Shown: one piece after another, positions 15,999-29,460 of the stretch | How positions within the stretch are numbered: position 1 is the stretch's first letter | Layout: every line of letters begins with the position of its first letter | Translations under genes and position numbers: made by a program | Assembly: GCA_026390435.1 (NCBI GenBank) | Contig: JAPLFY010000041.1 | Location: forward strand, 54,218 to 118,217 | Direction: 5' to 3' | From: Pseudomonadota bacterium | Lineage (GTDB): Bacteria > Bdellovibrionota_B > Oligoflexia > Oligoflexales > CAIYRB01 | DNA: 64,000 nt | The notes under the pieces: generated by a model | What the model saw: only the letters and a program-made list of their open reading frames with translations | Told to the model about the DNA's origin: nothing | Database searches by the model: none

Positions 15999-18900
15999 AT
16001 GCAAACGAAACTAAAAAAGCTGATCATTCTGCTTGCCATACTCGGCTTGATAGGCTTCTTTGCGAATTTAGCCGTGGACAATCCGTACACCCACCGACTA
16101 ATTCGCCTGATTCTAAATGAGCAGGTCACAAAGCGCACTAACCTCACCATCAATTTTCAAGCTATCAAAGTCAAGGTTGTACCTGCTGGCCTTGATCTCT
16201 ATGGACTGCAAGTCGCCGCAAATACTAAACCCGACTCGCCGTTTATAACTGTCTCACAAGTGCGTGCCCGCCTTTCATTCTGGAGCCTAATCTTAGGTGA
16301 GTTGCGCTTGGCCAATTTAGAGCTCAATGACCCGACTATACTCTGGCCACCACCAGGAAATCTAAGCAGCTTACTTCGCAGCAGTGAGGATGCTAAAGAC
16401 AGAGACTTTCCAGACCAAAGTAGCGGTACCATCTGGCCTCCAATCGTCGACATTCCAGTCAGTCGATTAGCCCTCATCAACGCCAAAATATTCGTAGAAC
16501 ACCCACTTTTCCAGATACCCGCCACGCCTAAATATCTTTCAATGTCGATCGGTGCCCTAGATGCCACCTGGGAATACAATTCCTGGCGCAATATGAAATC
16601 AACTCTAGACATCAAATCCCTTGACCTGTCTGTCGGGGCCTCGTCCATACTGGAGGCCACCGCTATATCCGGGGAGATTACTTTAAAAGATAAACTACTA
16701 AGCCTCCGAGATCTCAAGATTGATGGAGAACGCTTACATTTTTCCGGCGATGCCAGCGGTGAACTAAGAACAACCGCGGAACAATATCCGAAATTAAAAG
16801 ACATCACATTTACTGCCAACACCATGGGTACAGCCGATATCTCACTATTAGGTTCATTCCTGGACATCCCTGATACGCACGGCATTGTGGATGGCAAAGT
16901 TAAGATCGACGCAACTATTCCGGTTGCTGCCGGCACAAGCAGTAATTTTCAGGTATCTGGCGAAGGCAGGTCGCACGAAGCACGCCTGTTCGGATTCCGA
17001 CTTTTTAATAGTCTGACAAGCTTTATCATCGATGAAAACAGCGTGAAATTGCCAAACTTAGCCATCATCATTGAGGATGCCCGCGTCGCTAAAGGAAGTG
17101 GTGAAATCAAGCGAAACGACGCCTTAGACTTTGACTTCCGCCTAAGCCCTAGCGGCCTCCACCTGGTCGATTTACTGGAGAGTCTTAATGTCGATAGCCG
17201 CCTGGTGGATCTTTCCTTAACGGGACAAGAAGTTCGACTATCCGGAAAAGGCGATCCTTTTGTCCTAAATGGATCCGCGTCTGTCGACTTAACGGACATT
17301 ATCATTCCGTCGCTACCACCAAACAAATCCGCTTTCCCACATTCACCGGAATGTCACGCTGACCTTCGGCTGCTGGTAACTAATGACCAACTTGACTTCA
17401 CAGGCACTCGCGCAAGTTGTCTTCAACATGATTCTCGCTCACTAATAGCAGGCACCGGAACAGAACAGATCGACCGAGCTAAAACTGAGCTGACAATCTC
17501 CGGTGGCTTGCAATTTGCCGCTCCGGGAAAAACCAACATCCGAATCCTAGCACCATCAGCCAACTTAAGACTGGCTGAGTATTTTACACAGCTACCAATG
17601 GCTGGACGAGGGCGGGTAGAAACAAACATCAGCGGCCCTTTTGACCGCCTATCTGTAGACACACACCTCACTCAAGAAGATGTAGCCATCGCCCGCATAC
17701 CACTTGGTTCAGTCGAAGGAGACATAAAATATAAAGATGATCTGGTGAGCTGGGAGAATCTCCGCGCTGAACCTGACGATGGTGGATTGATCAGTTCACG
17801 CAAGGGATCACTGAATATTGGCAATGAAAATTACATACTGAATCTAGAATTTAATGCCGAGGAACTATCTCGAGAGGTTCCACGCGAAATAGCGACAATA
17901 ATTGATCCAGAAAACGACTTTAGCGCGAGCGTTAGAAACCTAAGCGGTCGATTCAATGGCCCCTTATTCTATCCCCTTGCCGGCACCGGATCGTTTGATT
18001 TTTTGATTAAAGACCTGCGTCTAAACGGCGAAACCCTGGCATCAACCGTCGACGGATCAGTAGTCGGCGAACAGAAAGGCTGGCACACGCAAAATCTCGT
18101 GCTGACCCACAATGCCTTGAGTGCAGTAGCTAATATTAACCACAAGCGTGCAGCTCCGTTCTCACCTAACGCTATCACTGACAAGCATAATCCACTGCAA
18201 TTCCTCGGACTGAATGCACAAGACAAATTGAATATCAACTTTCACACTATCGCCAACAAGGGGCCGTTACCTAATAGCGACACTGGCAGCACAGTTTCAC
18301 AGGATCATTTAAGTTTACTCCCTTACATTGGCGATATGGTTAAACCTATTGGATTGAAGGGCAAAATCGTCGCGCAGGGAGATTTCTCTGGCACCACCGA
18401 GTCACTACAGGGCAGCTTTACAGGCAGTGTTGATGAACCGGAAATACTTGGCAGCATGATGACTGCTGTCAATCTGCGAGGTTTTGTCCGCGGCAGTCAC
18501 ATAGATCTTGTGATGAATCATGGCGGCAATGCTCTAGATGGCCGGCTTTCCATGGATCTCTTCCGCGATGGTCTTCCGTACGAATGGTACGTGAGCTGCC
18601 ATCGCATGGACTTACGTGTTCTAGGCGCCCCCCTCTTTCATGATGACCCGCGAAATTATCTATATTTCACGGGCGACTGGCGAATGAAGGGTAAATTCAA
18701 AGACTTTTGGCACTCCATCGGAGAACTCAAGGTCACCGATCTTCGCGGTAATTATGTTCACGATCTGGCAACACAAACGCGCACGATCCAAATCAGGCAG
18801 GATGAACCCGTAAAGTTATTATTTACAGAAAGCGGCTGGCGATTCGAAGGTGACAAGGACCTTTTCCTAAGCGGTAAACATATACAGCTTCGTGTCTCCA

Positions 18901-20315
18901 CCAAAGATAGCAAGCCACCAGAGCGCTTAGGTTTGTTTTTTGAAAGTGTGATAGATGCCGGAATCCTAAAAACATTTGTTCAAGACGTTGATACAGCCGA
19001 AGGAAAAATTAATATCGTGGGGTCTCTATTTGGATCAGCGTCAGACCCCAGGCCCAATATTGAAATAACAGACCTAGCATCCAATCCCCTCATCGCGTCA
19101 ACATGGCGTCCACTATCCATTGGCATAGCCGAGATAAGACCGTCATTCCGCAACATACAATTAAAAGTGAACTATCATGAGGGCCGCCTATTCATCGACA
19201 AATTATCGGCTGAAAAGGGATCAGGCAAAGTAAATGCTTCCGGTACGGTTAGCCTCGGTAAAAATGGCGACGAAGAATCACACTTAGACATCAGCTTACA
19301 GGACGCAACCATCGTTTATCCGGTAGCTTTCATAAAGAATTTTGAATCACAAATAAGTGGAAATTTAGTCGTGTCCGGCCAAGGCATGCCCTATAAACTC
19401 GCCGGAGACATAAATATCAATCGCGCCAGGTCGACCCGAGAGGTCGACATCCGAAGCGAGATCATTAATGCTCTGCGGCAAAAATCAATCGGATCAGCGA
19501 TAGTTTCTGAAAAACCCAAACTTACCTTTGATCTTAATGTCACAGCTAATCAAAGCATAAACATTCACAACCGCAATCTCCAAACACAGCTATCTACTGA
19601 TTTGCGCGTCAAGGGTTCCGACATTAACCCAATACTTTCTGGTCAAATTGAGGTCAATAAAGGCAAGTTCACTTACAAACAGGAATTCAAGATCACTCGA
19701 GGACTTGTCATCTTCGATGATCCCGTCAAACCCGACCCCAGCCTGGACATCTTAGCGGTGAGTGATGTCGACATTTACCGCGTTTATCTCGGCATAAGTG
19801 GCCGAGCCTCAAATCCTAGCATTGAATTCTCTGTCGACCCGCCGACGCGCGAAAATGGCACGGCAATTAGCAAACTTGAAATATTGGTATTACTGTCCCG
19901 CGGCCGACTGCCAGAGGAAAGCCAATCTATGGGGCAGCAGACTCAGAGCGCCGCGACAAGTGAAGCAGCCAATCTTTTACTTGGCCAATTCGAGGAGCCG
20001 GTCGAAAAACTCCTCGATGTTTCCGGCCAAAATGTGGTTAGAAACGTTTACATCGACACCCACCCGGCGCCAGACGGAAGCCCAGTACCACGCCTAAACT
20101 TGCCGTTTGATCTGGGCGAGAATATCGATCTAATACTCCGGACGGATCAAGCGACCAGTCAGGTTTCACTAGAATACAATCTAAATGAGAGTATCTACGC
20201 CTCAGGCGTACACGAAATCTTGCGAAATAAAGACGCTCTCCCAGCCCAAAATACTCCGGGAAACATCGAAGGCGACTCTAGAGTGAACATGAAATTTAGA
20301 TTTTCCTTCGAATAA
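15999..20315 (+). CDS. tamB: TamB-like translocation and assembly module / AsmA-type bridge protein
   Basis: 1,438 residues. An N-terminal signal anchor (about 6-26) is followed by a very long beta-rich region with repeated hydrophobic strand patterns, as in AsmA-like bridge proteins that span the periplasm and carry phospholipid. The C-terminal TamB domain (about 1100-1438) has the typical pattern of a base-of-barrel segment (IVFDDPVKPDPSLDILA) and the closing helix-like ILVLLSRGRLPEES. It ends MKFRFSFE, beta-barrel-like. The partner Omp85 gene lies 6.2 kb downstream on the same strand, with three opposite-strand genes between. TamB helps outer-membrane protein insertion and lipid transport. 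Confidence 0.88.
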   Translation: MQTKLKKLIILLAILGLIGFFANLAVDNPYTHRLIRLILNEQVTKRTNLTINFQAIKVKVVPAGLDLYGLQVAANTKPDSPFITVSQVRARLSFWSLILGELRLANLELNDPTILWPPPGNLSSLLRSSEDAKDRDFPDQSSGTIWPPIVDIPVSRLALINAKIFVEHPLFQIPATPKYLSMSIGALDATWEYNSWRNMKSTLDIKSLDLSVGASSILEATAISGEITLKDKLLSLRDLKIDGERLHFSGDASGELRTTAEQYPKLKDITFTANTMGTADISLLGSFLDIPDTHGIVDGKVKIDATIPVAAGTSSNFQVSGEGRSHEARLFGFRLFNSLTSFIIDENSVKLPNLAIIIEDARVAKGSGEIKRNDALDFDFRLSPSGLHLVDLLESLNVDSRLVDLSLTGQEVRLSGKGDPFVLNGSASVDLTDIIIPSLPPNKSAFPHSPECHADLRLLVTNDQLDFTGTRASCLQHDSRSLIAGTGTEQIDRAKTELTISGGLQFAAPGKTNIRILAPSANLRLAEYFTQLPMAGRGRVETNISGPFDRLSVDTHLTQEDVAIARIPLGSVEGDIKYKDDLVSWENLRAEPDDGGLISSRKGSLNIGNENYILNLEFNAEELSREVPREIATIIDPENDFSASVRNLSGRFNGPLFYPLAGTGSFDFLIKDLRLNGETLASTVDGSVVGEQKGWHTQNLVLTHNALSAVANINHKRAAPFSPNAITDKHNPLQFLGLNAQDKLNINFHTIANKGPLPNSDTGSTVSQDHLSLLPYIGDMVKPIGLKGKIVAQGDFSGTTESLQGSFTGSVDEPEILGSMMTAVNLRGFVRGSHIDLVMNHGGNALDGRLSMDLFRDGLPYEWYVSCHRMDLRVLGAPLFHDDPRNYLYFTGDWRMKGKFKDFWHSIGELKVTDLRGNYVHDLATQTRTIQIRQDEPVKLLFTESGWRFEGDKDLFLSGKHIQLRVSTKDSKPPERLGLFFESVIDAGILKTFVQDVDTAEGKINIVGSLFGSASDPRPNIEITDLASNPLIASTWRPLSIGIAEIRPSFRNIQLKVNYHEGRLFIDKLSAEKGSGKVNASGTVSLGKNGDEESHLDISLQDATIVYPVAFIKNFESQISGNLVVSGQGMPYKLAGDININRARSTREVDIRSEIINALRQKSIGSAIVSEKPKLTFDLNVTANQSINIHNRNLQTQLSTDLRVKGSDINPILSGQIEVNKGKFTYKQEFKITRGLVIFDDPVKPDPSLDILAVSDVDIYRVYLGISGRASNPSIEFSVDPPTRENGTAISKLEILVLLSRGRLPEESQSMGQQTQSAATSEAANLLLGQFEEPVEKLLDVSGQNVVRNVYIDTHPAPDGSPVPRLNLPFDLGENIDLILRTDQATSQVSLEYNLNESIYASGVHEILRNKDALPAQNTPGNIEGDSRVNMKFRFSFE

Positions 20316-20317
20316 GA

Positions 20318-22264
20318 TCAGCGCGCACTATACATTATGATCGTGTTCTCAGCCAAAACCCTCACCTCACTATCGGGGTCGGATTTTGCTAGACGTTCAA
20401 TTGCAGATTTTGCAATCGACATAGTCTGATAATACTCCCCAAGCTGACGGATCAAAGCGGACCGTACCGAGGCCACTGGTTCATTTTGCAATTGCCTAAC
20501 TAACATCTCGCATGACGCCCGGGATGTCGGCTGTTGAGCTATCACTCGCACCACGTTTTGTCGCACTTGAGCGGACGGATCACTCAACATACCCAGTACG
20601 ACCTCACTAGCCGCAGGAGAGGACACATTGCGAAGCGCATTTACCCCAGCTATGCGGGTACTTTCCATAGAATCTTTAAGCAACGGACTAGCCAGATCGA
20701 TCACCCGCGAAGACCCGGTATTTCCTAATACTGCGAGTGCCACAAGCTTTCCATCCAATGTCGTGGCCCGATTGAATTCGCCAACGAAATCATTCGCGAT
20801 CAGATCAGCACGGCCCTGATCTGATTTTTTCAGATGATTGGCGACAGTACCTAGCCCAAGTTGAGCCATGGAACGAACCACTGAATCCGTTGACTTAGTG
20901 AGCGTCCGCAATGCCTGCTCAATTAAAGCGCTGGGCTCCTGCGGCTGACTGAGCAAGCTGATCAAATTACTTGCGAAAGCTGGATCAGAGGCACGAGACA
21001 TGATCTCTTCTACCAGAGTTGATTGGCATTCAAGACACCCAACATAAGCTAGGGCGCTAAGCGACTGCTGCAACCACAGATCTTTTGCCTCCAGCCCCTT
21101 AAGAGTGACTCGGAGTGCTGACAAATTATCATCATTAACGCGAACATATGCGACTAAACGGTCGTAATTTAATCGCTCTTCATTGGCACTAGTTTTTTGG
21201 CCCGCATCGCCCAATTGTCGGAACTCATCCTGAATATCATTTAATTTAGTCTGGCCAAGACGCTCCTTAGCATAAGTCTTTAACTGAGAGACATCCCGCT
21301 TTGGATCTCTTGCCGATGAAGCTGGAGATTCCACTTCATTTCGCCACGCAGTTACATTTGCGTGTGTCTGCAGTTGACGTTTTACGAATCTTAAAGAGTA
21401 CCCGGTCTTTGCGACTGAGACCATTTGCTGAGGTATCTCACCGACTGAAACTGAAGCGGACTCTTGACCATCGATCTGCCGCGCCCATCCAGTTTTACTA
21501 TCAAGATTGAATTTAACTTGGCCATTCAGCACACCTCGCACAGCAGGCGCGGCGCTACCGGCAGTCGAACTAGACATCGTCAAATAGCCCGTCTTTGCCT
21601 TAGTCGCCTGGATGTAGCCGCCACTTTCCGAATCGACATGGTATTCCGCCTGATAAATGCCGCTGCCATCTAATTCCCGCTGAGTCCAATTACGCGAGGA
21701 GGCAGAATCCCCCCAATTAAACTGAAATCCAGCAGCCACCTGCTTCAGCAATTGTTCTGCAAAACGGTCGATATTACTGCTAGTGGAAAAACCAGCTATG
21801 TGACCTTGCTTAGCCAGCGCCACCATCATTCCCCGCTGCAAATCCCTAGTTGTGTCCGCAAGGTCTCGTTCCCCAAGATGACGGCCGTCCTGAGCGAAAT
21901 CTATTTTAATGCCTGGACTAAATCGCATAAGAGTCTGCCAAATATCGGCGCCTTCAGCTACCGCGACAATCTCCAGCACACCTTCGATATCAAGTGAGAT
22001 TGTCCTTGCTGTACCTAGGTTCGCTCCTGCCCCACCATTCTCGTCCATCGTGATATCGCTGTGCATTTTCACATCAAATGATTGCTGGTCATCGATAGCG
22101 AAGGAAATCGAAGCAGGGTGAATGCTATTTGTTTCGTGATTAGGACCAGACGCCACACCAAAAAGTGACATCTTCCTTGCCAGGACCAGGAAAAGTGAGC
22201 CCAATGAGGCGAGCACGACTATAGATATGATTATGGTAGCCTTCTTAGAGCTATTGATCCGCAT
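20318..22264 (-). CDS. Secreted/anchored HEAT-repeat protein with vitellogenin-N-like (LLTP-like) N-terminal half
   Basis: 648 residues with an N-terminal hydrophobic anchor (about 9-29). Residues ~45-290 are beta-rich. Their order resembles the N-sheet of large lipid transfer proteins: a strand SFDVKMHSDITM, then ISLDIEGVLEIVAV, then VALAKQGHIAGF followed by an amphipathic helix (IDRFAEQLLKQVAAGFQF), then DGSGIYQAEYHV and a KAKTGYL strand. Residues ~330-648 are HEAT-type helical repeats (LGNTGSSRVIDLASPLLKD, AGVNALRNVSSP, VRQNVVRVIAQ). Beta barrel then helical array is the LLTP layout. This is inference from pattern, not a search. Its gene is convergent with tamB, two bases apart. Confidence 0.6.
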   Translation of the reverse strand: MRINSSKKATIIISIVVLASLGSLFLVLARKMSLFGVASGPNHETNSIHPASISFAIDDQQSFDVKMHSDITMDENGGAGANLGTARTISLDIEGVLEIVAVAEGADIWQTLMRFSPGIKIDFAQDGRHLGERDLADTTRDLQRGMMVALAKQGHIAGFSTSSNIDRFAEQLLKQVAAGFQFNWGDSASSRNWTQRELDGSGIYQAEYHVDSESGGYIQATKAKTGYLTMSSSTAGSAAPAVRGVLNGQVKFNLDSKTGWARQIDGQESASVSVGEIPQQMVSVAKTGYSLRFVKRQLQTHANVTAWRNEVESPASSARDPKRDVSQLKTYAKERLGQTKLNDIQDEFRQLGDAGQKTSANEERLNYDRLVAYVRVNDDNLSALRVTLKGLEAKDLWLQQSLSALAYVGCLECQSTLVEEIMSRASDPAFASNLISLLSQPQEPSALIEQALRTLTKSTDSVVRSMAQLGLGTVANHLKKSDQGRADLIANDFVGEFNRATTLDGKLVALAVLGNTGSSRVIDLASPLLKDSMESTRIAGVNALRNVSSPAASEVVLGMLSDPSAQVRQNVVRVIAQQPTSRASCEMLVRQLQNEPVASVRSALIRQLGEYYQTMSIAKSAIERLAKSDPDSEVRVLAENTIIMYSAR

Positions 22265-22305: not shown

Positions 22306-23694
22306 TCACAATGCGGACTGAGAGTCTGCTGGAAAACACTGATCTTCGGTTTTTAAGATACTCAACTCGTGACTTGTGCCTGCCCAATTGACAAAATTCA
22401 TATCGCCACGCCAACCAAGCGGAAGCTTTCCGAGCGACTTTTCGGGTTTTCCTAGCTGTGCGTACGCAGTAAGTTTTCCACCGAGAACTTCGGTCACCGC
22501 AAGCTTAATATTGCCGTTATAACAGAAGGCTAGCTTGCCATCTTTGTCTTTCGTCAATGCCACTAGACCATTGCCGCTCATTCGTGCGCTTGCAATGCTA
22601 AATACGCCATCAACTCCTGCCTTTGCAAATTTGACATCAGCTCCGCCTTCGAGACTGACCGAGGATGAAATATTAGGACCTATACCGGCGCTGAGGGACG
22701 TGGGCCTCAAGTTATAGTTAACCGGCACGGACCCCTTGATCCGAAATGCCCAGCTTACCCTGAACGGCAATGGGCCGACTGCGAATGTCAATGTGCCTGG
22801 ATAGTTGTGATTGACACTTAGTAGCGATTTATTGAGTGATTTGTCCGGTTCATTTAACGAGATCTCCTTAAATGCCTCCTGGCCAAAAATCTGAATCTGC
22901 AAATTCAGAGAAGCCGCCTGACGCAACTGCAAAGCGTGAGTCTCAAGCTTTGTAAAAATTAATGATCTTTGAACTCCAAATGCCTTACCAGCGACATCGG
23001 CAGAGCTATGCAGCGCCATCCCCTTTTTGTTTCTAACATAAAAATATCCGGTTACTGAGGCTGAAAACTGGTCACTACCAACTCTGTAATTGCGCGCGCC
23101 ACCAATCCAACCGTCCTCGACACTATAACTCTTGGCTATTGCGACATCTTCCTGGTTTGAAAATTTATCCAAGTTCGCCTTCTGTTGTTCGACTACTGAG
23201 CCCAAATCAATCTTTGGTGAAGCCACATCCACAACCTGCAAATTCTGAGATCCCGCCCCGTGGTCGATCACATCTAATAGGTCTATTCCTGCCTGAGCTA
23301 ACATACCGCCTAGGTCGGCAATTTCTTTTAGTGCAACCTCCTTTGCCACAATCTTACACTCGCCAGAAATAGCTATGGCAACGGATCCGATATTGGCTTG
23401 GGCCGATTTATCATCACAGTTTGATGGCAGCCGACCTAACACCGCTTGACTCATGGAACCTGTCCAAGTGAACGGGGCCGCCTTGGGTTTAAAATAATCC
23501 CCGCTGTTGATGCTAGCGTCGGCAGCGCCAACGCTGGAGCTTGGCCCAATAGGACCTGAAACATCGAAGGTACTTACAGCCCCCCCCGGAGCCGAGTCAT
23601 ATATCTTCGACTTTGAGTGTTCCTTACAGCTGCTCAGCAAGGGCACGAAAAGAGATTCAAATGCAAACAACCAAATGAACCGAATCCGATTCAT
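22306..23694 (-). CDS. Lipoprotein of unknown function, beta-rich
   Basis: 462 residues. The leader ends LLSSC (Cys 22). GGAAGAG precedes the ATG. After a Gly/Ser-rich linker the protein is dominated by alternating hydrophobic strands, especially residues ~290-400 (FRVSWAFRIKGSVPVNYNL, SVSLEGGADVKF), suggesting an open beta sheet or barrel-like fold. Six cysteines besides the lipid Cys are visible. It lies 41 bases upstream of the LLTP-like gene on the same strand, so the two products may work together at the outer membrane. I do not recognise a family. Confidence 0.65.
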   Translation of the reverse strand: MNRIRFIWLFAFESLFVPLLSSCKEHSKSKIYDSAPGGAVSTFDVSGPIGPSSSVGAADASINSGDYFKPKAAPFTWTGSMSQAVLGRLPSNCDDKSAQANIGSVAIAISGECKIVAKEVALKEIADLGGMLAQAGIDLLDVIDHGAGSQNLQVVDVASPKIDLGSVVEQQKANLDKFSNQEDVAIAKSYSVEDGWIGGARNYRVGSDQFSASVTGYFYVRNKKGMALHSSADVAGKAFGVQRSLIFTKLETHALQLRQAASLNLQIQIFGQEAFKEISLNEPDKSLNKSLLSVNHNYPGTLTFAVGPLPFRVSWAFRIKGSVPVNYNLRPTSLSAGIGPNISSSVSLEGGADVKFAKAGVDGVFSIASARMSGNGLVALTKDKDGKLAFCYNGNIKLAVTEVLGGKLTAYAQLGKPEKSLGKLPLGWRGDMNFVNWAGTSHELSILKTEDQCFPADSQSAL

Positions 23695-23727: not shown

Positions 23728-26253
23728 TCAGACATGGCGTCCAACGGCAAGAAATACGCAGTCATCGATCACTGGATTATTCGCAATATGGTCCTTATAA
23801 GTCGTCAAGATGTCCTGGTATATCGACTGCGAATTCGAACTTTCGCCCATGATCTTGCGGATATTTCGAGGGGAGATAGATTGACCTGATAAGGATCTAT
23901 TTTTAACCAGACCGTCTGTGTATAAAAATAACGTGTCACCCGGATCAACTTGAAATCTTGAAACGAGACATTGCTCCAAGAATTCAATTTCACCGAGATG
24001 AAAACCGCGCTGCACGAGCGTACGAACTTCCCCATCATGTTTGATATATAAAGGCATGTGAGCGGCATTCAAAAATGATCCCTGGCCAGACTTAATGTCA
24101 AGCACAACGAACGCCATGGTCATCGAACAATTCAAAGGCTTCCCAAAGCGAACTATCGCCGCGTTGGCAGCTCTAGCAAGCTGATAAATAACCTCATCAG
24201 TAGACATGTCTACAGAATCTAATAATGAATTATAGACGGTCCCTAGAGCAGAACTAACCGCCGTCGAGACCAAAATTGCTGATGTGCCGATTGCACTCAC
24301 GTCACCGATCTGCAAATAAAGATGTCCAGCCTTTGAATCATAATGATAACCAAAAAAATCCCCGCCTACGTGCTGAGCCTCTTGGTAAAAAAAATCAATA
24401 TCGATACCAGGTATGTCCTTTTCGCCCTCGTTCAATACACCCGTCCGGTAGGAGGCTGCGATTTCTTTGTCAAAGTCGGTGCGAGACTTAGTTTTAGCTT
24501 CTTCGATATACTCATCGAGAAGAGCCGTTATTCCCGATTTCGCCGATTTTATGCCTGAACTTTTCTTAATGATTTGATCGACGATAGCACTAAAATGAAC
24601 TGAATCGCTTTGCAAGCTTGACTTGGATCTGACAGTCCGAATATCTAGTTTATTGATAATTTCCTGTGTTGGCTCAGAATTCGGCATCGTACTGATGACT
24701 TTACGCTCGGGCCTAAGTGAACTTAACTGCGAAAATTCGTGCACCAAGTGCGATACCTTAGCTTCGCAACCCCACATACTATAAAACTGGCAAGCTTCTC
24801 TTAACTGCTGGCCTGCCAAGACTTCGTCACGCTGTTCAAGGCTAAATCTACCCAGGCATTCTTGAACAAACGCAAGTGGCAGTAAATAACCCGAGTCCCT
24901 CGCTTTGCTTCTAGCCAAACAATAGTAATTAAAAGACGTCTCAACCCTACCGAAGATGCGAGCAATTTCGGCGCAAATCAGGTTCCATGCCCAAGCAAAA
25001 CCCGAGGGATTGGCCTTTGATAGGTAATAAACAAAGCCTATCTCAGCCCGCAACTTGAGCAATTTTCGGTAGGGCCACTGACCCTGAAATCTGAGGGAAG
25101 CAATGTCAGCATAAATCATTAAGATGCGGCATTGGGGTGAAATAGGAACCAAAAGACCGGATCGCTTCTGATTATTTTTTAAATGCCCGTATGCTGACGA
25201 AGCCTCGTCATACTTACCCCAAATGGCAGCGATAGCACCTATCAATGTCCAGTGAAATGAAACACTGATGATGTCTCCATCCGCCTTGCAAGCACGAAGA
25301 AAGAGTTCGTCGGCCCTAATGTCGTTAGATAAATCATTTACGCCAAGCTTTGACTTAGCTAACTGACCAATAGTTTTTGAAAGGAACAACGTATTGCGAA
25401 CAGCAAGTGAGCCAGTACCCCGATGCGCCCACCTAAGTGAGGCATCCGTACATTCTAGAACCTTAGCAAAAGTGTCCCAGGTGAACAGGTCGCTCAGGAG
25501 CTCGCAATCGAGCGAAAAAGCTGTCGTTGATAAATCTACAGAATTTTTTATCGCCGCTAACTGCTGCCCAATCATCTTGGGCGTCAAACGGCGTGGATAG
25601 GTCCAGGGAAATAATAGCCCCTTCCAATCCGTTGAGACATGTGTCTGCCTTTGCTTTAGTCGACTATCCGTCGCCACTCGAGTTGCCAACCGAGCACATA
25701 CTGAAGCGAATGAATATCGCCTGATATACTGCGAATTTTGCATGACACCGAATAAACCGATACTGCGTGATGCCGCTTCACCAAAGCCATGCTTGAGAAA
25801 TCTTCTCACCTGCGTAGCCACCAAAAACGCAGCCAGCATGGGGTCGGTAAAAAAAGACATGGAAATGCTGCGATCGATTTTCTGACTTATTGCAATCTGA
25901 CTTTGATCGATCATCTCAGCCATGGGCACCCTACCCTTGCTACCCTTGCTACCCTTCATGCGCAGAGACACAGAGGTGAGCCACACCTCAAGCAAGACAC
26001 GGCCAAGTGTCGGGTGGCGAGGTATACGGAGCCCCAGTTCTTTGAGATCCATGATTGCTGTGTCGAGAGACTCGGCAACCTCAGCTGGCTCGGTTAGGGT
26101 ATCCGCATCCAAAAACGATGTTAGCTCGGCTGAGAGATGTGACGAGTCGCCGCGATTAGCTGCATCGTTCGGAACCGGCTGGGGTGCGTCTTTCATGGGT
26201 TGCCTGGCAGCGGCAGAGTCACCGCAGAAAGTAACGGAACTCATGTGGGTCAT
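23728..26253 (-). CDS. TPR-like N-terminal region plus SpoIIE/RsbU-type PP2C phosphatase
   Basis: 841 residues. The C-terminal domain (about 600-841) carries the PP2C/SpoIIE metal-binding signatures in order: GGDFFG (Asp about 632), IGDVSAIG, LYTDGL and VIDDCVFLAV. RsbU/SpoIIE phosphatases dephosphorylate Ser/Thr of anti-sigma antagonists. The first ~550 residues are helical with no kinase or sensor motif and look like degenerate TPR-type repeats. No partner STAS or HPK gene is in the window. A 9-bp triplet repeat near the 5' end encodes KGSKGSKG. It starts the three-gene minus-strand group between tamB and the Omp85 gene. Confidence 0.82.
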   Translation of the reverse strand: MTHMSSVTFCGDSAAARQPMKDAPQPVPNDAANRGDSSHLSAELTSFLDADTLTEPAEVAESLDTAIMDLKELGLRIPRHPTLGRVLLEVWLTSVSLRMKGSKGSKGRVPMAEMIDQSQIAISQKIDRSISMSFFTDPMLAAFLVATQVRRFLKHGFGEAASRSIGLFGVMQNSQYIRRYSFASVCARLATRVATDSRLKQRQTHVSTDWKGLLFPWTYPRRLTPKMIGQQLAAIKNSVDLSTTAFSLDCELLSDLFTWDTFAKVLECTDASLRWAHRGTGSLAVRNTLFLSKTIGQLAKSKLGVNDLSNDIRADELFLRACKADGDIISVSFHWTLIGAIAAIWGKYDEASSAYGHLKNNQKRSGLLVPISPQCRILMIYADIASLRFQGQWPYRKLLKLRAEIGFVYYLSKANPSGFAWAWNLICAEIARIFGRVETSFNYYCLARSKARDSGYLLPLAFVQECLGRFSLEQRDEVLAGQQLREACQFYSMWGCEAKVSHLVHEFSQLSSLRPERKVISTMPNSEPTQEIINKLDIRTVRSKSSLQSDSVHFSAIVDQIIKKSSGIKSAKSGITALLDEYIEEAKTKSRTDFDKEIAASYRTGVLNEGEKDIPGIDIDFFYQEAQHVGGDFFGYHYDSKAGHLYLQIGDVSAIGTSAILVSTAVSSALGTVYNSLLDSVDMSTDEVIYQLARAANAAIVRFGKPLNCSMTMAFVVLDIKSGQGSFLNAAHMPLYIKHDGEVRTLVQRGFHLGEIEFLEQCLVSRFQVDPGDTLFLYTDGLVKNRSLSGQSISPRNIRKIMGESSNSQSIYQDILTTYKDHIANNPVIDDCVFLAVGRHV

Positions 26254-26469: not shown

Positions 26470-29460
26470 GTGCGAGCTTTTTCATCCCTCGTTGCCTGGA
26501 CGAGTTTTATGATGGCCATGGTGCTGTCGCCGCGAGCAACCGCAGCGACCTGGCGGCCGGTTGATGGCTTAATTCCAGCCTCAGCCCTGGAGCGCCTTGC
26601 CGAGCGTTACCCAACCATTCGCGACGCTAATGAACTTGAAAATCTGCTTCTTGATATCGGACGTCGCCAACAAATGCTGCGTCTGGAAGCAAGATTTGAG
26701 CATGAAACGTGGGTCATTGACGGAACGCCCGCGACTCTAATCGCGGATCTGGAAGTGCGGGTCACTGCCCGCATGATGGCCCAGCTCGTCTACGCATCGC
26801 TGCAAAATTATATTGGACAAGTAGACTCTCCAGAGTCACGGGTTAAAGTCGTCGATGTGGTGCAACGCTTTATGCATCGGCACGGATATCCATGGTCTCA
26901 CACCAATCTGAAAACTAGCGAAAATGAAGAGGGTACGGTCTACGATATCGCTGTAGATGAAGGCACACCCTGCGTACTTGATCGCATCGACATTGGGTTC
27001 AAATTACCTGTTGGAACAAAACTAGATATTAGGCCCGGTGACTCCTGCGACCTGGAACTCGTCGACACAGCTATCAGCGATTTAGAAACTCAACTCCGAG
27101 ATAATGGATACAGTCAGGTTAAGCTCATCTCTCCGGTGATCTCGTTTCACCCTAGACCAGCGACAGCATCTCTGACGATAACGGGGACACTCGGCCAGCG
27201 TATCAGTTATGAAATCGTCGATGATAGCCACAGATTCTTGCTCGACGACCTATTTGGCGACGAAGATCTCACGGCAATTGATCCGACAATAGTCAGTCCT
27301 GATGCTATGACAGCTGAGCTTGCACGACGCTACCGCAACCGTGGATTTCTTGATGTAAGTATCAAAGGACCGACACCCAAGACCGAAAATAGCGATGCTA
27401 TCGTTTACGTTTACCACGTTAATCCAGGCAGACAATATGTGCTCAAGAGCGTCCAATTCGAAGGGGTCACCGTCTTTTCCCAAAAGCAGCTCATGGAAAT
27501 CATTGGAGTTGGCAGACTTTGGCAAAGCTCACAGCCTTATAACTATGAAGAAATTCAGCAAGGTCTCATGGCTCTACGGGCAAAATATCAACAAGAAGGC
27601 TACTGGGATGTCGACATCCATGACCCAGGAACCGGTCAACGCGACAAAGAGACAGGATCGATTCGACTTACGATTGCGGTCAATGAGGGAACATCGAGAA
27701 AACTTGCCGAAGTCAAAATTGTTGGCAACAGGGCCCTGACAAGCGCAGAGATCCTAGATATCCTAAATATGCCTACTGAGGCGCCGGTCGATCGCGCCAA
27801 GATCCTGGATTTTCAGCAGCAACTACGAACTGCATACGTCGCCAAAGGCTACCTTTACAGTGACGTTCAAATAGAATTAAAGGCCCAAGAACGCAAACGC
27901 ACCCGATGGCTTGAGTTACAGGTAAACATAGTGGAAGGTCAGCGCGTACGTTTTGGCGATATCAACATAGTTGGCCTCACCAGGACGCATGAAAAAGTCG
28001 TCCGTCGTGAATTACTGTTCCACAGCGGTGACTGGTACGAGCCAGAATTGATCAGTAATACGCGTCAAGCCTTGAATCGCCTGGGCATTTTCAGATCGGT
28101 TCAGATAGTGCCGACAGATCGAAACGCCATCGCAGATAAAGAACCAGAACTAGATATCAACATAGACATTCGTGAAGGACGCCCTGGTTCAGTCGCATAT
28201 GGTCCTGGCTGGAGCTTAATCCGCGGATGGAACTACGAAGCCGAGGCTGCCTACAACAATATTGGAGGTGTCGGAAGGCAGGCATCTATTCGCGGCTCTA
28301 TCAGCCAAGAGCGAAATCAATACGGTATTGGCCCTCGAACTTTGCTAGGCCGAAAAATTGGTATCGGCTATACAGAGCCATTTGTCTTGAACCTGCCCAT
28401 TGATGCATCAGTACGGTCTAAACAAGAGGCATTTTGGGACGGAAAATTGTGGACACTCAGCTTCAGTGGCGAATTGGAATTTAAGTATAAATTTCGTCGA
28501 TTGTTGCCAAACAGTTTTGTGTCCGCTTTCTATGGACAGAAGATTGCAAATGTCGAAGGTTCGGCACTACAGCTGGCAAACCTTGTCGCTAACAATGAGC
28601 ACGTCGGATCTCTTGGGCTCCGCTTTAATATTGACCGCCGCAATAATCTAAAGTTCCCAACAGCCGGCTACGTCGCCAATACGGAAGCCTCCTGGGCCAG
28701 ATACGAACTCAACGGCGATGTTCGCTATTTCCGTTGGGACATTGGAATCGGCCGCTATTTTGACCTAACAAACGATTCCGTGTTCGCTCTTGGAATTTAC
28801 GGAACTGGCTACGACGATATCCAGCGTAAGGGCAATAAAATAGGGATCCTACCCCAGCAGGAGCGCCTATCATCGGGTGATGACACAGTACGCGGCTTCC
28901 CAATCGCCAGCCTCGGCCCTTTGGTGAAAGCGCCGGTATTTACAGATAACGGCACCTGCAACGTCAATTACAATAGATCTTCCTTGTTCGGGACAAATCG
29001 ACTTTCGATAAAAAGCGAGATTAGGCATAAATTCAGCGATGTCTGGGCCGCAACTGGCTTTGTCGATAATGGGAACGTATTCCTATCACCTGAGCAAATG
29101 AATCGATTCCAGGAAGCTTACAGCGGCCCCGTCGCGGATCCAAACTTAGCTCAGCACCCTAATTGTCGCAACTATGCCCCGGCGCCGGTGCGAACGATCG
29201 AGGATAACTTCGCCTATAAATTTGCAGATCTTGCGCGAAATCCGTCCTATCTTTGGTCGCGAAACTACTATTCCTATGGTGGCTCACTCGACTTTCTCAC
29301 GGCGCTTGGATCGATAAACATTACCTACGGCCTACCTTGGCGAGAGCCTAAGACACAAGCTTGTCGTGACGACCCCAAACAGTGTAACCGAAGGGCACGG
29401 CAAACCGGCCCTTGGTTTAGTCGCGGCGAATTTCTAGTCAACATAGGTGCGCGCTTCTAA
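26470..29460 (+). CDS. Omp85 family outer-membrane assembly protein (BamA/TamA type)
   Basis: 996 residues from GTG 26470, with AGGCGG upstream and a signal peptide cut near ATAA (about 26). At least four, probably five, POTRA modules follow: examples are the blocks ending RYRNRGFLDVSI, LRAKYQQEGYWDVDI, LRTAYVAKGYLYSDV and LNRLGIFRSVQIV. The 16-strand barrel domain (about 600-996) contains the lid-loop motif VRGF and ends in a terminal Phe (NIGARF), the usual barrel signature. Five POTRAs is closer to BamA, but the gene neighbourhood with tamB suggests a TamA role. The barrel inserts or helps insert outer-membrane proteins. Confidence 0.88.
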   Translation: MRAFSSLVAWTSFMMAMVLSPRATAATWRPVDGLIPASALERLAERYPTIRDANELENLLLDIGRRQQMLRLEARFEHETWVIDGTPATLIADLEVRVTARMMAQLVYASLQNYIGQVDSPESRVKVVDVVQRFMHRHGYPWSHTNLKTSENEEGTVYDIAVDEGTPCVLDRIDIGFKLPVGTKLDIRPGDSCDLELVDTAISDLETQLRDNGYSQVKLISPVISFHPRPATASLTITGTLGQRISYEIVDDSHRFLLDDLFGDEDLTAIDPTIVSPDAMTAELARRYRNRGFLDVSIKGPTPKTENSDAIVYVYHVNPGRQYVLKSVQFEGVTVFSQKQLMEIIGVGRLWQSSQPYNYEEIQQGLMALRAKYQQEGYWDVDIHDPGTGQRDKETGSIRLTIAVNEGTSRKLAEVKIVGNRALTSAEILDILNMPTEAPVDRAKILDFQQQLRTAYVAKGYLYSDVQIELKAQERKRTRWLELQVNIVEGQRVRFGDINIVGLTRTHEKVVRRELLFHSGDWYEPELISNTRQALNRLGIFRSVQIVPTDRNAIADKEPELDINIDIREGRPGSVAYGPGWSLIRGWNYEAEAAYNNIGGVGRQASIRGSISQERNQYGIGPRTLLGRKIGIGYTEPFVLNLPIDASVRSKQEAFWDGKLWTLSFSGELEFKYKFRRLLPNSFVSAFYGQKIANVEGSALQLANLVANNEHVGSLGLRFNIDRRNNLKFPTAGYVANTEASWARYELNGDVRYFRWDIGIGRYFDLTNDSVFALGIYGTGYDDIQRKGNKIGILPQQERLSSGDDTVRGFPIASLGPLVKAPVFTDNGTCNVNYNRSSLFGTNRLSIKSEIRHKFSDVWAATGFVDNGNVFLSPEQMNRFQEAYSGPVADPNLAQHPNCRNYAPAPVRTIEDNFAYKFADLARNPSYLWSRNYYSYGGSLDFLTALGSINITYGLPWREPKTQACRDDPKQCNRRARQTGPWFSRGEFLVNIGARF

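Follow-up and report, generated by a model that had tools for sequence, protein, structure and literature searches.

Large lipid transfer proteins (LLTPs) are best known from animals, where they act as carriers of fat (yolk, LDL and chylomicrons). The carriers that move phospholipids across the Gram-negative periplasm are still argued over, and TamB/AsmA-like proteins are bridges rather than carriers. In helix 10 of MTP, L477 and N479 are part of a strongly conserved segment, N479 forms a bond with the C-sheet backbone that keeps the helical domain in place on the lipid cavity, and phospholipid transfer has been suggested as the original activity of MTP (available text of PMC7444587). No bacterial LLTP is described in the literature consulted, which was mostly openly readable and included the accessible portions of PMC10907164, PMC7444587 and PMC1783640.

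In this study, two adjacent genes, P0001 and P0002, from the window (the whole stretch of DNA analysed, 64,000 nucleotides) were compared with these systems. If the two bacterial chains were joined, a barrel, a helical array and cavity sheets would follow each other in the order of the MTP large subunit (residues 26-612 and 613-880), and an LGN asparagine would be common to both by position, as judged through lipovitellin and apoB. Unlike MTP, which is one chain, the bacterial version comprises two genes and an N-terminal membrane anchor, its N-sheet motif is without cysteine, and its partner half is alike in predicted fold only. It differs from lipovitellin and vitellogenin (1lsh, 9ens) in that the bacterial chain has neither the A and C sheets nor other downstream domains, and in its bacterial host, with no hint of a storage role, and from the N-terminal region of apoB (9bd1, 9bd8) in having no long extension and a separate partner chain. 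TamB/AsmA-like lipid bridges share the probable envelope location and are a gene neighbour in this genus, but they form a different family from P0001 and are not its general neighbour. The whole-chain LLTP architecture was not found, and we classify the pair as a putative split bacterial LLTP-type system.

The LLTP-like gene P0001

The sequence-only reading of this DNA had proposed an LLTP-like gene beside tamB, without giving its strand, which is minus (Table 1). The membrane anchor it described was recovered as a hydrophobic helix, and its beta-rich half in N-sheet order as predicted strands with an internal helix and the quoted blocks (W193..E.DGSGIYQAEYHV to residue 210; KAKTGYL at 222-228). 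The proposed LLTP layout of a barrel followed by a HEAT-type helical array also held, with 20 predicted helices lying directly after the barrel in the AlphaFold model (mean pLDDT 80.9, pTM 0.50, from the 30-row alignment A1). The W..E.D..G...Y pattern is present in distant relatives of P0001 as well; L036, from one of the genus genomes, has 90% identity. The chain stops after the helices, and a C-/A-sheet lipid cavity is absent from the same polypeptide: P0001 ends where the cavity of an LLTP would begin.

Table 1. Positions of the features in the window and, in the last row, of a further conserved gene in other stretches
Feature	Position	Strand	Basis or remark
tamB	15999..20315	+	TamB 127.4 bits; convergent with P0001
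LLTP N-module gene P0001	20318..22264	-	648 aa; membrane anchor, N-sheet barrel and helical array
P0001 helical (HEAT-type) array, residues 304-646	20327..21355	-	Pfam, prediction, profile of residues 318-536
P0001 LGN motif, residues 513-515	20720..20728	-	aligned to lipovitellin ALGNAG and apoB IGNMG
P0001 N-sheet-type beta barrel, residues 59-300	21365..22090	-	predicted strands
P0001 motif W..E.DGSGIYQAEY, residues 193-208	21641..21688	-	alignment to lipovitellin
Helix within P0001 barrel, residues 167-179	21728..21766	-	prediction; inside lipovitellin-aligned stretch
P0001 signal anchor / TM helix, residues 5-32	22169..22252	-	predicted helix and hydrophobicity
Partner gene P0002, predicted lipid-cavity half	22306..23694	-	462 aa; lipoprotein-like
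P0002 beta core, residues 196-455	22330..23109	-	predicted fold matching MTP 613-880
P0002 lipobox-like LSSC, residues 20-23	23626..23637	-	sequence
SpoIIE/PP2C-type phosphatase gene	23728..26253	-	SpoIIE 76.3 bits; 33 bp upstream of partner
Omp85-family gene	26470..29460	+	Pfam; divergent from operon
Third conserved gene	L038:11517-12656; L045:2829-4002; L052:3922-5052; L054:3697-4869		also in L049, L050, L058 and L062

The profile check that had been suggested was carried out with hmmscan instead of HHpred, and Pfam Vitellogenin_N (PF01347) matched P0001 with 40.4 bits (E 1.9e-10), above its cut-off of 24; HEAT_2 reached 60 bits. The Vitellogenin_N match covers the helical part only (residues 364-604 against profile positions 323-585); the N-sheet match was demonstrated through relatives and a barrel-only profile. 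The own-genome paralogue L002 matches profile positions 1-152 and 232-582, and the relative L011 matches positions 36-536 in a single stretch. The barrel-only family profile A5, searched against PDB sequences, placed lipovitellin first (E 5e-6; the next match had 0.018), with the P0001 motif at residues 193-208 standing opposite lipovitellin ...ELQETGVEGICQTTY. Lipovitellin has GIC where the bacterial barrel profile has GkY; its cysteine is one that we take to be part of a conserved disulfide, and cysteine at columns 204 and 227 of the N-sheet motif is absent in all 30 alignment rows.

When the helical profile A7 (residues 318-536) was run against PDB, just two natural proteins, lipovitellin and apoB, ranked among the top 20. 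The best seven Foldseek matches of the AlphaFold model were all LLTPs; the best PDB matches, among which the earlier reading had suggested comparing lipovitellin and MTP, were MTP (residues 26-612), lipovitellin, apoB and bee vitellogenin, with both domains covered. The rmsd of these superpositions is high (10-19 A) and the pTM is 0.50, so that a contact between N-sheet and helical domain is putative.

Vitellogenin_N exceeded its cut-off in 16 of 58 genomes of the phylum and in none of 14 controls, and the barrel profile matched 15/15 family proteins and 0/29 other HEAT proteins, all 29 of which are without a PF01347 annotation. In a small local search, P0001 aligned over residues 54-647 with locus L187 of a second phylum (24% identity, E 7e-24). 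Judged by these comparisons, the N-module of P0001 is a member of the LLTP superfamily; the protein is not a generic HEAT-repeat protein devoid of an LLTP-specific barrel, and neither an unrelated beta domain nor the lack of a profile match, named beforehand as outcomes that would speak against such a reading, occurred.

A1 was built without the short ORFs L015, L016, L020 and L023 but with L033 (ABC transporter plus HEAT) and the weak L032, which thereby also entered the model alignment; neither of the two was used for A2, A5 or A7, and A2 additionally excluded L008, L019, L031, P0011 and P0014. A protein search with the A2 profile was swamped by HEAT-repeat matches. Two candidate members were dropped, namely P0035 (a Pyxidicoccus trucidator HEAT protein, considered as a named member), which had no match to the barrel profile, and L163 (G298), which matched the other HEAT proteins P0042 and P0025 better. 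At L033:93-1802, HEAT repeats seem to be joined in frame to an ABC-transporter ATPase.

The asparagine of the LGN motif, N515, is the only invariant column in the 24-row helical alignment A7. It was found in 29 of the 30 A1 rows (the exception being the non-member L033), in 39/39 members of the own phylum that match the barrel profile, and in seven of the eight other-phylum ORFs that reach the position, the eighth having LGD; two further ORFs are truncated. Since profile A7 aligns the bacterial LGN with lipovitellin LGN and apoB IGN, we infer through these two proteins that N515 probably corresponds to N479 of MTP.

The partner gene and its pairing with LLTP N-module genes

The gene 41 bp upstream of P0001, P0002, belongs to a family without a name and had been overlooked in the earlier reading. 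Its predicted fold, from a weak model, best matches the lipid-cavity sheets of MTP, residues 613-880, and P0002 is thus predicted to encode the C-/A-sheet cavity that P0001 does not have. The LLTP interpretation was borne out for the N-module homology and needed amendment for the cavity part, which is missing from P0001 and is predicted in the gene upstream. Profile searches of PDB gave three unrelated matches only for the partner profile A4 (E 0.9-1.9) and no match up to E 10 for the 38-row profile A6, which comprises 26 of the 31 A4 rows and 12 new rows. The own genome gave no match to PF19444, and one of the 14 controls matched it below cut-off; a link of the family to PF09172 was rejected, 1 of 38 at E 0.078 not being evidence. 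A protein search with A4 retrieved only seven close relatives.

The length of partner ORFs varies between about 260 and more than 1000 aa, and LGFP repeats are present in one of them. A strongly hydrophobic N-terminus is present in 14 of 31 partner rows, compared with 27 of the 30 A1 rows of LLTP N-module (LLTP-N) proteins; a lipobox-like string occurs in 5/31 partner rows. The partners of a third group of genomes (L161:7575-10403, L162:1551-4712 and L177:706-3696) have about 940-1050 aa, of which the family match stops near residue 500-550, with a further 450-500 residues lying beyond it.

LLTP-N genes were found in 29 genomes of the phylum, or 28 after removal of G009, whose match was the ABC-transporter/HEAT fusion L033. 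The partner profile A4 matched 28 of the 58 phylum genomes, and these are identical to the 28 LLTP-N genomes. From the first phylum search, 40 of the 45 other LLTP-N places were fetched for a neighbour check, and the partner was the next gene in 32 of these 40 stretches. Across 60 stretches, some of them picked by partner matches, the partner lay beside 41 of 52 LLTP-N genes (34/39 when a barrel match was present), with 32 partners upstream on the same strand, six downstream and three divergent.

Three short LLTP-N genes (L048, L068 and L076; 407-423 aa) have a helical match and no barrel-profile match, with a divergent partner 117-148 bp away. Partners without a recognisable LLTP-N gene were seen in L131, L132, L133, L135 (a 4 kb contig), L142, L143, L145 and L146; one of these is a fourth partner copy in the window's own genome (G000:C143). 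In eight stretches (Table 1) the partner is immediately preceded by a third conserved gene, which codes for about 380 aa and may represent a third component; its N-terminus is secreted- or lipoprotein-like, and the two members scanned gave no clear Pfam match.

In a wider draw of relatives, 34 out of 383 genomes had a PF01347 match; the own phylum accounts for 15 of these, and many of the others have short HEAT spans only. Of 193 genomes from the second phylum (that of G085), 59 have PF01347 and 75 have the partner. There, 78 of 94 PF01347 matches starting before profile position 400 lay within 5 kb of a partner, compared with 0/11 of those starting after it, a limit chosen after the list was seen; conversely, 75 of 141 partner matches lay within 5 kb of a PF01347 match. 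In the third group (the phylum of G349) the partner was found in 6 of 201 genomes and adjoins LLTP-N in L161 and L162. The phyla of G085 and G349 are presumed to be different, since their tallies differ greatly. The gene pairing was thus shown in three phylum-level groups.

The tamB neighbourhood

The adjacency to tamB noted earlier is real, the two genes standing tail to tail, 2 bp apart, but it is a local feature. The SpoIIE phosphatase gene is likely in the same operon as the pair in this genus, and the SpoIIE-partner-LLTP operon lies between tamB and the Omp85 gene, on the opposite strand, in four of six genus genomes searched (the window; L036/L042; L037/L041; L040). A TamB cluster was found in 0/37 other clustered stretches (L131-L163 were fetched later and stand outside this count), and two further LLTP-N/partner pairs, L038 and L039, lie elsewhere in the window's genome, in which TamB has a single match; TamB is therefore regarded as a neighbour and not as a defining partner.

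The Omp85 neighbour scored 240.7 bits with the BamA-type model and 49.4 with TamA, both below cut-off, so a TAM label for the locus is uncertain; its assignment as tamA was rejected and it was left as Omp85 family. All four genomes of the genus that have the locus retain the SpoIIE phosphatase gene, for which a regulatory link is possible; the N-terminal region of its product is long and gave no convincing Pfam match.

A proposed two-chain lipid carrier

A split carrier would require just such an asparagine, conserved for holding a sheet that is missing from P0001 itself, and this led us to the two-chain proposal. With P0002 predicted to provide the lipid-holding part that P0001 lacks, the two proteins likely act together, and we consider it probable (roughly 0.7) that the N-module homologue and the predicted cavity sheets of the upstream gene form a two-chain, MTP-like periplasmic lipid carrier. 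Both folds are predicted, and the complex, its location, its cargo and lipid transfer by the pair are proposed. P0001 would likely be anchored to the inner membrane through its N-terminal helix, with barrel and helices in the periplasm, a placement that draws on sequence features only. P0002, likely a lipoprotein in the window's genus, would dock on the helical array via the LGN asparagine, as N479 of MTP docks its own C-sheet, and would bring the two-sheet cavity that encloses the lipid. The cargo would most likely be phospholipid, moved between inner and outer membrane, since phospholipid is present in both bacterial membranes and its transfer is the suggested original activity of MTP (available text of PMC7444587).

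Helical arrays are common protein-binding scaffolds, and homology of an N-module is no proof of lipid binding; a true LLTP relative could thus carry no lipid and instead provide a periplasmic platform on which an envelope or surface protein is bound or assembled, the partner being its cargo or ligand. The wide range of partner lengths and the LGFP repeats of one partner would fit such a role, which we nevertheless consider unlikely, for the best fold matches of the partner are to precisely the missing half, the LLTP lipid cavity, and the conserved asparagine, by position, packs on that cavity in MTP. Less probable still is that the pair is a TamB/Omp85 accessory aiding the delivery of lipid or outer-membrane protein along TamB: the operon between tamB and the Omp85 gene in four genus genomes, the single TamB match in the genome and the link of TamB to outer-membrane lipid homeostasis (available text of PMC8593681) speak for it, but the absence of the TamB cluster from all 37 other clustered stretches, own-genome pairs L038 and L039 included, speaks against it. 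A chance join of generic HEAT repeats to an unrelated beta domain, with the Vitellogenin_N match as HEAT cross-talk, is very improbable and already largely refuted by the barrel-only profile finding lipovitellin first, by the 29 other HEAT proteins without PF01347 annotation or barrel match, and by the second-phylum co-location (78/94 versus 0/11, with the position-400 limit set post hoc).

Beyond the two-chain carrier itself, it is a doubtful, tentative extension that at least three bacterial phyla possess a two-gene vitellogenin/MTP/apoB machine for intermembrane phospholipid, from which the one-chain system of animals arose by fusion. Cultivable hosts are likely to exist, since the second phylum includes many high-quality genomes of 9-13 Mb with the pair, some of them single-contig. 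If true, a bacterial split LLTP would represent a new route of lipid traffic across the Gram-negative periplasm and would provide an outgroup for testing the origin of animal lipoproteins.
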